From positions 1-32,038 of the forward strand of contig JAUPVT010000002.1 in the NCBI GenBank assembly GCA_030916885.1: a stretch of 32,038 nucleotides of DNA, read 5' to 3'. The stretch is from Chlamydiota bacterium. GTDB lineage: Bacteria > Chlamydiota > Chlamydiia > Chlamydiales > Rhabdochlamydiaceae. Position 1 is the first letter of the stretch, and every line of letters starts with the position of its first letter. Shown here in pieces: positions 20,498-25,978 of the stretch. Below the pieces are notes generated by a model, which saw only the letters and a list, made by a program, of their open reading frames with translations, ran no database searches and had not been told where the DNA came from. A program made the translations under genes and the position numbers.

Positions 20498-21584
20498 ATG
20501 ATCTTAAAAAAACCCTTCAATATGTAGCTGTTTTTTTGTCACTACTGCCTTTTCAATAACAGCTGAAGCCTGTACTCGCATTCTCTACCAAGGCGCTCAA
20601 AACGTTGTTATTACAGGACGATCAATGGATTGGATGGAAGATATGCACTCTAACCTCTGGATATTCCCAAGGGGCATAGAGCGCAATGGTGAAGCCGGTC
20701 CTAATTCCATTACATGGATTGCTAAATACGGTAGTGTTATTGTTTCTGGCTATGAAGCAGGAACGACTGATGGGATAAATGAAAAAGGACTTGTTGCTAA
20801 CTTGCTCTATCTTGTGGAATCTGATTACGGAAAATCTAAAAATAAAAAGTCTCTCTTATCCGTTAGTTTATGGGCGCAGTTTGTTCTTGATAATTTTGCA
20901 ACTGTTGCCGAAGCTGTAAATCAACTATCCTCAGAACCCTTCCAGGTTCTAGGTTCTAATCTCCCCAATGCTAAACCTGCACAACTACACTTGTCCATCT
21001 CAGATGCATGAGGAGACTCTGCTATTTTTGAATACATAGGTGGAAAGCTTGTCATTCATCATGGCAAGCAATATCCAGTAATGACGAACTCGCCAAAATT
21101 TGATGAGCAGCTTGCTCTAAATAAATACTGGGAAGCCATAGGTGGACAAACCTTTCTTCCCGGAACTAGCTTTGCAGCAGATCGTTTTGCTAGAGCTTCT
21201 TTTTTCATTCAAGCAATCCCAAAATCAACAGATCTCAACTATATTATAACAGTACCAAAAGGAACCTACACTAACCAGGCTATAGCTAGCGTTACAAGCG
21301 TTATCCGCAGTGTAAACATACCTCTAGGAATTACCACCTCAGGCCAGCCAAACATTGCATCAACTCTTTGGCGCAGCATTCCAGACAATAAAAACAGAGT
21401 ATATTATTTTGATTTAGCTACAAACCCTAATACCTTTTGGGTTTCCTTATTAGACTTTGATTTGACAGAGAAAAGTCCAGTAAAAAAACTGATCCTAACC
21501 AATGGCAAAGTGTATTCAGGAAATGTAAATGATCAATTTGAAGCCTCTGATCCCTTTTGCTTTCTTCCAGCTGCCATAAACTAA
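20498..21584 (+). pseudogene. Broken choloylglycine-hydrolase-family (Ntn hydrolase) gene
   Basis: GAGGA before the ATG at 20498 is a strong ribosome binding site. Restoring one A in the A-run 20506-20512 and one T in 20550-20553 gives a signal peptide (MILKKTLQYVAVFLSLLPFS) ending in TAEA and then the nucleophile Cys encoded at 20571-20573. The mature start CTRILYQGAQNVVITGRSMDW is typical of bile-salt hydrolases and penicillin V acylases. The frame then runs to an in-frame TGA at 21009-21011 (SISDA-stop-GDSAIFEYIGGK) and continues unbroken in the same frame to 21584, through YPVMTNSPKFDEQLALNKYW and FAADRFARASFF. So two homopolymer indels and one nonsense change separate it from an intact exported or periplasmic amide hydrolase. 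The substrate is unknown. An IS3 scar follows directly. Confidence 0.85.
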
Positions 21585-23601: not shown

Positions 23602-24741
23602 ATGTTAACTTTGAGTCAATTTGAAATTATTCGTCCTACATATGAAAGCTCGCAAGAAGAAACATTGAATTGGCTCATTCAAGCGCATACACAATCAGAA
23701 GCTTACACACAAGGAAAACAAGCAGAGCAGATTCAACCTTTTACGCTGAATCTCAAACAAAAACTAGATCATGTTGCCTGTAAGCCCAATCGAATTTCAA
23801 AAAGAGGACATGTTTTAAGCGATTTTCTACACACGGAGTGGGAAAAGATGAAGGTTTACCGTCTGGAAGAGTCTTCTTTTGGAGTTGATTTAACAACCCG
23901 ATCTAAAATTTTTTCCGATCAGGTGGAAGCTGCGTTTGAGCAATTTTATCCAGAATCTGCTACTTCTCCAGATCACTTAATTCATGTAACTTGCACTGGA
24001 TACGTCTCTCCTAGTGGTGGGCAAAAAATGGTTTCTCAAAGAGGATGGGGAGAGAAAACCGTTGTTTCGCATGTCTATCACATGGGCTGTTCTGCATCTA
24101 TTCCTGCCTTAAGATTAGCACAAGGATCTTTGCAAGCAGAAGATTGCATTGATATCGTTCATACAGAGATTTGCTCTTTACATACGAATCCTTCTTTGCA
24201 TGAACTAAACCAATTGGTCTCTCAATCATTGTTTGCAGATGGGTTTATAAAATATCGAGCGCAATCCAGTTGTTCTTCTGAGCATTTTCAACTCTATATC
24301 CTTCATGAAGAACTGGTTTCTAACTCTTTTAATGCTATGCACTGGAAAATGGAAAATTGGGGATTTGCTCTTTCCTTGTCTCAAGAAATACCAGCTTTAA
24401 TTGCCCAATCTATCTATCCTTACTTAGTTCGCATGAGTCAAAAATCGGGGTTTACCATCGAGTACATCTTACAAAATGCACTTTTTGCTATCCATCCAGG
24501 TGGGCCTAAGATTGTTCAATCTATTCAAGCAGTATTGGGCTTAAGTTTTGCTCAAGTAGCTCATAGTAAATTCATTTTGCAGCAATTTGGCAATATGTCT
24601 TCAGCTACTCTGCCACATGTATGGAAAGAAATTTTAGAAGATTCAAAAGTGGTATCAGGATCTCTTATTGTGAGCTTGGCTTTTGGTCCAGGTCTTACGA
24701 TTTGTGGGTCCATAATGGAAAAGAGGTTGCCATGTGGTTAA
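23602..24741 (+). CDS. Type III polyketide synthase (chalcone/alkylresorcinol synthase family)
   Basis: This 379-residue thiolase-fold enzyme extends an acyl-CoA starter with malonyl units and cyclises the chain. The catalytic triad is present at Cys163 (YHMGCSASIPAL), His298 (AIHPGGPKIV) and Asn331 (GNMSSATLP), almost the same numbers as plant chalcone synthase (164, 303, 336). CTGYVSPSGGQ precedes the Cys, and FGPGLT, a C-terminal signature of the family, is at 361-366. FabH-type ketosynthases are excluded by the spacing and the GPGLT end. The small Ser and Ala around the Cys do not allow a starter to be named, but bacterial relatives usually take long fatty acyl chains. The promoter and ribosome binding site are weak. 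The gene overlaps the membrane protein gene by ten bases, and the methyltransferase follows, forming a three-gene operon. Confidence 0.93.
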   Translation: MLTLSQFEIIRPTYESSQEETLNWLIQAHTQSEAYTQGKQAEQIQPFTLNLKQKLDHVACKPNRISKRGHVLSDFLHTEWEKMKVYRLEESSFGVDLTTRSKIFSDQVEAAFEQFYPESATSPDHLIHVTCTGYVSPSGGQKMVSQRGWGEKTVVSHVYHMGCSASIPALRLAQGSLQAEDCIDIVHTEICSLHTNPSLHELNQLVSQSLFADGFIKYRAQSSCSSEHFQLYILHEELVSNSFNAMHWKMENWGFALSLSQEIPALIAQSIYPYLVRMSQKSGFTIEYILQNALFAIHPGGPKIVQSIQAVLGLSFAQVAHSKFILQQFGNMSSATLPHVWKEILEDSKVVSGSLIVSLAFGPGLTICGSIMEKRLPCG

Positions 24742-25238
24742 TAGCTATTGTCCCTTTTATTTTGCAAGCCGTCGCTATGATTTTTGATGAAGGATATTTT
24801 CATATAAAAAGAACTCTGCCTCGTTGGGAAAGAATTGGACATCCGATTGATACGCTAAGCGTTTTGATTTGTTTTTCCTTTGCCCTTTTTGTTCCTTTTT
24901 CTTCTTCAACCTTGAAAAGCTACTTGCTTCTTTCTGCTATCTCTTGTGTTTTGGTAACTAAAGATGAATTTGTGCATAAACATCATTGTTGTGCAAGGGA
25001 AAATTGGTTGCATGCACTATTATTTACTCTCCACCCGATTACTTTGGGGTTAGCTGGGTTTATTTGGCCGATCAGTCAGGAAAAACCCGTTGCTAGCTGG
25101 ATGCAGCAGTGGTTAACTAAACCACAAATTTTGCACAAATTTTTACTGTTCCAAGTAATAGCACTTACCCTTTTCTTGATCTATCAAGTAGTCTTTTGGA
25201 ACTTAGTTTGGAAAGAAAAATGCGTAGAAAAAGAATAA
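24732..25238 (+). CDS. Small integral membrane protein of the polyketide operon
   Basis: The start is the ATG at 24732 (168 residues), with AAGAGG just upstream inside the PKS gene. The longer open frame upstream is antonymous to PKS coding and is not used. Predicted hydrophobic segments are at about 1-17, 41-57, 62-76, 93-113 and 136-158. Between them sit unusually dense polar stretches: DEGYFHIKRTLPRWERIGHP (19-38, with Asp19, Glu20, His24, Arg27, Arg31, Glu33, Arg34, His37) and KDEFVHKHHCCARENWLHA (77-95, with Asp78, Glu79, His82, His84, His85, Glu90, His94), plus His101. Clusters of Asp, Glu and His at the membrane face recall metal-dependent membrane enzymes, but no family is recognised. 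Position between a PKS and a methyltransferase suggests a tailoring step such as ring hydroxylation, or product handling. That is inference. Confidence 0.82.
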   Translation: MWLIAIVPFILQAVAMIFDEGYFHIKRTLPRWERIGHPIDTLSVLICFSFALFVPFSSSTLKSYLLLSAISCVLVTKDEFVHKHHCCARENWLHALLFTLHPITLGLAGFIWPISQEKPVASWMQQWLTKPQILHKFLLFQVIALTLFLIYQVVFWNLVWKEKCVEKE

Positions 25239-25978
25239 TCAATAACTCTTTTTACAACGAATTAAAAGAGCGTTGGTATCTAGAAAATGACCACCCTGTT
25301 GCCTTATTAAGAGCGGAAAATGCACTTCGAAAAGATTGGGTGGCCTCTCAAATAGACCCTAATCAAAATATTTTAGACATTGGTTGCGGTGCGGGTTTTC
25401 TTACAAATTTTCTGGCTGAAAAAGGACATGTAGTGACAGGGGTGGATCTTTCGGAAACAAGCTTAGACATAGCACGTTTACACGATCAAACTCATTCTGT
25501 GGAATATATTAAAGCTAGCGCTTATCACCTTCCTTTTGAAAAAACAAAATTTGACATTGTATGTGCAACAGATGTTTTAGAGCATCTAGAATATCCAGAG
25601 CGATTGATTCAAGAGGCTTCTCGAGTACTTCGCCCTGGAGGGTATTTCTTTTTTCACACATTTAACCGCACTCTTGCTAGTTATGTTATTGTCATTAAAG
25701 GTGTAGATTGGTTTGTTCGAAATGCTCCAAAAAATATGCATGTTTATTCCTTGTTTATTAAGCCAAAAGAGCTAGAGAAGATGTGTTATTCAAATGGTTT
25801 TAATATAGAAAGTTTAAGAGGATTTCGCCCTAAAATTTTGACTAAGAGTTTTTTTCGCCTTTTATTGACTAAAAAAATTTCCACAGACTTTTCTTTCTGT
25901 TTTTCTTCTTCTCTTAAAACCGGTTACTGTGGAGTTGCGCAAAAAGTTCGCTCTCATGCTTGTTATGAAAAAATTTAA
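25220..25978 (+). CDS. UbiG-like SAM-dependent O-methyltransferase
   Basis: I start this 252-residue protein at the ATG at 25220, preceded by GGAAAG; it overlaps the membrane-protein gene by 19 bases. Class I methyltransferase motifs are LDIGCGAGFLT (52-62), GVDLSE (74-79) and, later, DVLEHLEYPERL. Three UbiG-type features are the N-terminal FYNELKERWYLEND, PVALLRAE, and the C-terminal FNRTLASYVIVIKGVDWFV followed by FIKPKELEKM. UbiG methylates catechol or phenol hydroxyls in ubiquinone synthesis. Here, beside a type III PKS, methylation of a resorcinol-derived phenol is more likely. The final 25 residues are Ser- and Lys-rich and less conserved. A housekeeping ubiquinone or menaquinone role remains the main alternative. 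Confidence 0.88.
   Translation: MRRKRIINNSFYNELKERWYLENDHPVALLRAENALRKDWVASQIDPNQNILDIGCGAGFLTNFLAEKGHVVTGVDLSETSLDIARLHDQTHSVEYIKASAYHLPFEKTKFDIVCATDVLEHLEYPERLIQEASRVLRPGGYFFFHTFNRTLASYVIVIKGVDWFVRNAPKNMHVYSLFIKPKELEKMCYSNGFNIESLRGFRPKILTKSFFRLLLTKKISTDFSFCFSSSLKTGYCGVAQKVRSHACYEKI

Follow-up and report, generated by a model that had tools for sequence, protein, structure and literature searches.

Among the closest known systems to the locus reported here are three-gene units. In srsABC of Streptomyces griseus and pkqABC of mycobacteria, a type III polyketide synthase (PKS) is joined by a methyltransferase and a third gene, and hidABC of cyanobacteria, the operon of the hierridins, as well as the planctomycete mtr-fdo-PKS operon are likewise tricistronic, combining a methyltransferase, an oxidoreductase and an alkylresorcinol synthase (PMC10896814). 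The ArsB and ArsC enzymes of Azotobacter vinelandii take long-chain acyl starters and differ at one switch residue, Trp or Gly, which decides between aldol closure to an alkylresorcinol and lactone closure to an alkylpyrone (PMC6274091); the Trp criterion was applied likewise to pkqA and a Streptomyces PKS (MNU77), both of which carry Trp at the ArsB-281 position (PMC9927152). Alkylresorcinols are cyst lipids in Azotobacter (PMC6274091), and Streptomyces spores show an increase in polyketide quinones along with a decrease in menaquinone (PMC9927152). Genome mining has already turned up type III PKS clusters, both in Chlamydiae (PMC9666466) and in a symbiont of Hydra (PMC13229535).

Here we analysed a chlamydial locus that has a PKS and a methyltransferase in one operon, as the phenolic-lipid operons do, and that lacks their flavoprotein hydroxylase or oxidoreductase. 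What seems to be new, judging from sequence comparison, is a phenolic-lipid type III PKS operon with an undescribed membrane protein family (MEM) in the flavin oxidoreductase's place.

Gene organization of the locus

The window (the whole stretch of 32,038 nucleotides that was analysed) makes up contig C33 of a Chlamydiota genome of 1.37 Mb, which confirms its chlamydial origin. The earlier note on this DNA had placed three overlapping genes at 23602-25978, and open reading frames (ORFs) lie exactly there, with the overlaps correctly described:

23602..24741, + strand: type III PKS, 379 aa, of the ArsB/ArsC (alkylresorcinol/alkylpyrone) kind; Pfam PF00195/PF02797
24088-24090, + strand: codon of PKS Cys163
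24343-24345, + strand: codon of PKS Trp248
24493-24495, + strand: codon of PKS His298
24592-24594, + strand: codon of PKS Asn331
24732..25238, + strand: MEM, polytopic membrane protein of an undescribed family, 168 aa; candidate metal-dependent ring oxidase/hydroxylase
25220..25978, + strand: MT, UbiG-like SAM-dependent O-methyltransferase, 252 aa; NCBIfam UbiG TIGR01983

MEM most likely starts at ATG 24732, with the ATGTGGTTAA overlap with the PKS stop, and not at the start of a longer ORF at 24621; for MT, ATG 25220 is most likely the start, not TTG 25196. Comparison with congeners gave dN/dS values of 0.04-0.05 for the PKS, 0.07-0.13 for MEM and 0.08 for MT, indicating purifying selection on all three genes. 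A promoter and terminator scan gave no signal above that of shuffled sequences. Elsewhere in the window, a choloylglycine hydrolase-like (CBAH) gene at 20625-21584 (+ strand) is split into ORFs of 128 and 167 aa, which cover profile positions 19-147 and 200-313; it is probably a decayed gene or the product of a sequencing frameshift.

Class and predicted product of the PKS

The PKS passed the Pfam thresholds of both Chal_sti_synt_N (PF00195, 31.9 vs 27 bits) and Chal_sti_synt_C (PF02797, 65.7 vs 27 bits). The Cys163-His298-Asn331 triad, which the earlier note had called intact, is so, and it is invariant in 123 of 123 PKSs of this type, as are Trp248 and F211. The best relatives in the PDB were 3vs9 and 3vs8, both Azotobacter ArsC (E 1e-59), and the next distinct solved relative was Dictyostelium Steely1 (E 3e-25). 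The entry 3vs8 is the wild type and 3vs9 the G284W mutant (PMC6274091); Trp248 aligns with the Trp of 3vs9 and the Gly of 3vs8, that is, with the ArsB-Trp281/ArsC-Gly284 switch column. On the strength of this residue, the enzyme is predicted to make a long-chain 5-alkylresorcinol and not a pyrone, although the switch was established in the Azotobacter enzymes and its use for the window PKS is an extrapolation. The route to an alkylresorcinol or alkylpyrone suggested in the earlier note can accordingly be narrowed: the enzyme belongs with the lipid-making ArsB/ArsC synthases, and Trp248 points to the alkylresorcinol.

Conservation of the three genes in Chlamydiota and beyond

A PKS match was found in 100 of 234 Chlamydiota genomes, about two thirds of these matches being close to the window PKS. 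MEM directly followed the PKS in all 52 chlamydial loci of this type that we examined, and MT came next in 48, while the remaining four contigs stop within 0.7 kb of the PKS. MEM was detected in 69 of the 234 genomes and close MT relatives also in 69; PKS, MEM and MT occur in nearly the same genomes, which is the co-occurrence across Chlamydiae that the earlier note proposed to look for. Five genomes have MT and no intact MEM; in three of them the gene lies at a contig end, and in the other two (G160 and G175) it lies within a longer contig. A larger conserved cluster was rejected: the outer neighbours in the window, encoding a RumA-type methyltransferase, a hexapeptide acyltransferase and an FPP synthase, do not keep their place beyond the genus, and outside chlamydiae no further partner is shared.

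In many other chlamydiae (neighbourhoods L093-L139), a TauE/SafE-like permease gene lies directly 5' of the PKS, and thiol peroxidase-like (Tpx) and malic enzyme-like genes lie 3' of MT, these names having been read from sequence rather than taken from a profile search. In the genus of the window, the three genes sit elsewhere than in those neighbourhoods.

Scanning GTDB contigs with the MEM alignment returned 145 relatives, the best 80 of which were fetched. Among these best 80 of 145, 75 had a PKS and 75 a methyltransferase of the same type beside MEM, and the three genes mostly overlapped or lay a few bases apart. Carriers include Bdellovibrionota, Myxococcota, Acidobacteriota and Pseudomonadota, with Fluviispira multicolorata 33A1-SZDP (L168, Bdellovibrionota) as a named strain. 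The chlamydial setting stressed in the earlier note therefore stands in that a chlamydial genome carries the operon, but not as a specificity for Chlamydiae or for intracellular life, since other phyla carry it too. In the PKS tree that the note had called for, all chlamydial enzymes of this type formed one clade (SH-aLRT 95, quick method), which takes in bins labelled Verrucomicrobia or Acidobacteria; those that could be matched belong to the Chlamydiota set (for example, L107 is G164). Pairwise distances of the three proteins correlated with r of 0.59-0.68, compared with at most 0.24 in permutations, a calculation made without species-tree control.

Partial versions were also observed. Three Acidobacteria loci (L161, 1962-3253; L170, 4897-6023; L158, 782-2022) carry MEM and MT with no adjoining PKS; a PKS was present elsewhere in one of the three genomes and was not found in the other two, so MEM and MT may act on another phenol there. 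A betaproteobacterial locus (L163) has PKS and MEM without MT. Taken together, scores of genomes from several phyla in which the gene order persists and the genes overlap or abut, along with dN/dS values of 0.04-0.13, exclude chance, and the results support the three genes as an old conserved operon and a functional unit.

The UbiG-like methyltransferase

The assignment of MT as UbiG-like in the earlier note was upheld: it passed NCBIfam TIGR01983 with 144.4 vs 102.95 bits. It aligns to the solved UbiG structure 4kdc across the region around the LEH motif, and its residues D118, E121 and H122 are invariant. Substrates of UbiG are phenols with a neighbouring ring hydroxyl or quinols, which would suit an oxidised alkylresorcinol as the MT substrate. 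All methyltransferases checked from this operon in other phyla also scored above the TIGR01983 cut-off; since this equivalog model accepts every one of them, automatic annotation may wrongly call them ubiquinone enzymes.

An alternative operon with a FAD oxidoreductase

Thirty Chlamydiota genomes (loci L085-L092, L187-L206) harbour a second, distant group of PKSs, whose operon contains the PKS, a PRK06202-like methyltransferase (below the UbiG cut-off) and a FAD oxidoreductase that most resembles the geranylgeranyl-reductase family. Both accessory genes were near the PKS in 24 of 28 such loci. Trp at the switch column was invariant here as well (8 of 8 PKSs checked), and thus looks like the common state. 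A TspO/MBR family gene lies directly 3' of this operon in one locus (L090:8397-8873).

The MEM type was found in 68 genomes, the FAD type in 30 and both types in none (Fisher p 2e-5 with phylogeny ignored), an exclusion confounded by phylogeny in that a single family, f22, accounts for most of the FAD type. The two types alternate within families f1, f5, f6 and f22 and within one genus, g4, in which G114 has the FAD type and G115 and G116 the MEM type. The simplest reading of the exclusion and the alternation is one of functional equivalence between the two operons, with MEM replacing the FAD enzyme. The suggestion that the membrane protein stands in the hydroxylase's place has thereby gained strong comparative support, and MEM seems to replace the FAD oxidoreductase of the known pathway versions.

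In G153, a near-complete genome with all three genes, no PF01494 aromatic hydroxylase scored above background; oxidation in that organism therefore cannot rest on such an enzyme encoded elsewhere. The genome of the window has a homologue of PF01494-type FAD hydroxylases with one in-frame stop codon (G000:C27:11694-12692, L182), and the congeners G154, G155 and G157 have PF01494 genes without a stop.

Conserved residues and predicted fold of MEM

MEM matched no Pfam or NCBIfam family, FAD domains included, and 43 members of the family gave no convincing Pfam match; a PDB sequence search returned nothing below E 0.1. The AF2 model, built with 74 sequences from the window and the other loci, is all-helical with high scores (pLDDT 94.9, pTM 0.89), and Foldseek found no PDB fold match with E <= 0.001. 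As the Pfam, PDB sequence and PDB fold searches were all empty, membership in a known membrane di-iron or other membrane enzyme family was rejected. Plasmid-borne homologues were looked for and none were found.

Among the 74 homologues, 24 columns are invariant, and D, E or H fills 12 of them (against a background of 11%; binomial p 3e-6), namely D19, E20, H24, E33, H37, D40, D78, E79, H82, E90, H94 and H101. In the AF2 model, these residues are found where helices 1, 2 and 5 end and within a short helix (78-85), all on one side of the membrane, which is predicted to be cytoplasmic because the loops on that side bear positive charge. The cluster looks like a metal-binding enzyme site, although enzymes in general are often enriched in D/E/H. 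A metal site and an oxidase activity are what we infer from the conserved residues of this family, which has no characterised relative.

Proposed pathway and physiological role

From these comparisons we infer the following route, including its exact starter, the chemistry of MEM, the methylation site and the physiological role. The PKS would load a long-chain fatty acyl-CoA or acyl-ACP, add three malonyl units and close the ring by aldol condensation to give a 5-alkylresorcinol. MEM, with its acidic and histidine cluster at the cytoplasmic face, would then oxidise the ring of the membrane-embedded alkylresorcinol, a step taken by the FAD oxidoreductase in the srs, pkq, hid, planctomycete and alternative chlamydial operons, and the UbiG-like MT would O-methylate the resulting hydroxyl. 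The end product may be a methoxylated alkyl-hydroquinone or quinone, or a phenolic lipid, which would remain in the membrane of the bacterium and serve there as a redox-active or barrier lipid in addition to menaquinone. Our confidence in this three-enzyme pathway as a whole, up to the membrane-retained lipid, is evenly balanced.

As for the role, the genome of the window carries MenD, an enzyme of the classical menaquinone pathway, together with two matches to cytochrome bd. Family f1 has no MqnA/MqnD-type futalosine genes, and most of its members have MenD; across chlamydial families, the two menaquinone routes split along family lines. With MenD present, the organism probably makes menaquinone classically and the PKS product would be an addition; replacement of menaquinone, considered in view of the missing MqnA/D in f1, was rejected on account of MenD in the same genome. 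Of the electron-transport function envisaged in the earlier note, a main respiratory quinone is thus unlikely, and an additional redox lipid may be proposed. A link to cytochrome bd was also rejected, as CydA occurs in 188 of 234 genomes and in about 60 of the 69 MEM-positive ones and does not discriminate. The parallel between the cyst and spore lipids mentioned above and the chlamydial resting form is attractive as an analogy.

It is tempting to go further, albeit only tentatively and with more doubt than conviction, and to suggest that MEM could found a family of its own, small metalloenzymes that take over the oxidation of polyketide phenols in the membrane from flavin hydroxylases. It could thereby enable a polyketide quinone pathway that extends over at least five phyla, including the obligate intracellular Chlamydiota, where the pathway might yield, besides menaquinone, another redox lipid that is perhaps linked to the resting form. 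If the proposed pathway is right, a phylum of stripped-down intracellular parasites would have retained lipid synthesis of a kind that, in its closest relatives elsewhere, supplies resting stages with cyst lipids or alternative respiratory quinones. The two interchangeable operons would amount to a natural experiment indicating what the undescribed membrane family does. Relatives in culture that are not Chlamydiota, such as Fluviispira multicolorata, would allow tests without infected host cells.

Alternative explanations

MEM might instead serve the PKS product as a membrane anchor, flippase or exporter, in which case the pathway would end in an O-methylated alkylresorcinol without ring oxidation. 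A small polytopic protein without a known enzyme relative would suit such a part, and some known operons of PKS and methyltransferase do without an oxidoreductase, e.g., that of Stieleria maiorica (PMC10896814). Invariant positions that are mostly D, E and H at one membrane face would, however, be unusual for a passive anchor, and the exclusion between FAD and MEM operons is more easily explained by an enzyme swap than by a transporter; we consider this explanation unlikely, if a serious one. That MT is a housekeeping quinone enzyme (ubiG/menG) lying beside the PKS by accident is in line with its passing the UbiG equivalog cut-off, yet its close relatives occur almost exactly in the PKS/MEM set of genomes, its own genome has the MenD route to menaquinone, and methyltransferases in the same operon in other phyla pass the same model. 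The earlier note had named clustering of MT with housekeeping ubiG/menG of PKS-free Chlamydiae as grounds for dropping its reading; MT tracks PKS and MEM instead, which makes the accidental neighbour highly improbable.

Type III PKSs often yield both pyrones and resorcinols in vitro. This, together with an overall similarity greatest to ArsC, an alkylpyrone synthase, would allow an ArsC-like alkylpyrone as the product; the invariant Trp248 at the switch position (PMC6274091) and a partner methyltransferase from a family that methylates phenols and quinols argue against it, and we regard it as improbable. Even less probable is a product that is released to act as an antimicrobial or as a signal to the host, for example in the manner of the methylated polyketide signals of amoebae. 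The authors of the Hydra symbiont study propose defence for chlamydial clusters (PMC13229535), and Steely1 of Dictyostelium follows ArsC among the solved relatives; but the relation to ArsC is far stronger, the operon also occurs in non-chlamydial phyla (among them Bdellovibrionota, Myxococcota and Acidobacteriota), and an ArsC-like PKS with a membrane partner points to a retained lipid. Oxidation of a membrane-retained alkylresorcinol by MEM is the reading we prefer.

Comparison with known systems

In the literature searched, which was limited to papers outside subscription journals, we found no account of a PKS-MEM-MT operon or of the MEM family, and no prior description of UbiG with a type III PKS or of Rhabdochlamydia polyketides. 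The reported chlamydial PKS clusters (PMC9666466, PMC13229535) share phylum and enzyme class with the window, and the accessible text of these reports gives no operon anatomy, product, division into two types or MEM. The Azotobacter enzymes are the closest solved relatives of the PKS, but they are encoded alongside the fatty acid synthase ArsA in the ars operon (PMC6274091), not alongside MEM and a UbiG-like methyltransferase. The third gene of srsABC and pkqABC encodes a hydroxylase or oxidoreductase, whereas the window has MEM between the PKS and the UbiG-like MT; hidABC and the planctomycete operon differ further in their order, methyltransferase, FAD oxidoreductase and PKS, with the PKS last, and no MEM has been reported in them. 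The FAD-type operon of other Chlamydiota, for its part, has the same content as the srs, pkq, hid and planctomycete operons (PMC9927152, PMC10896814).
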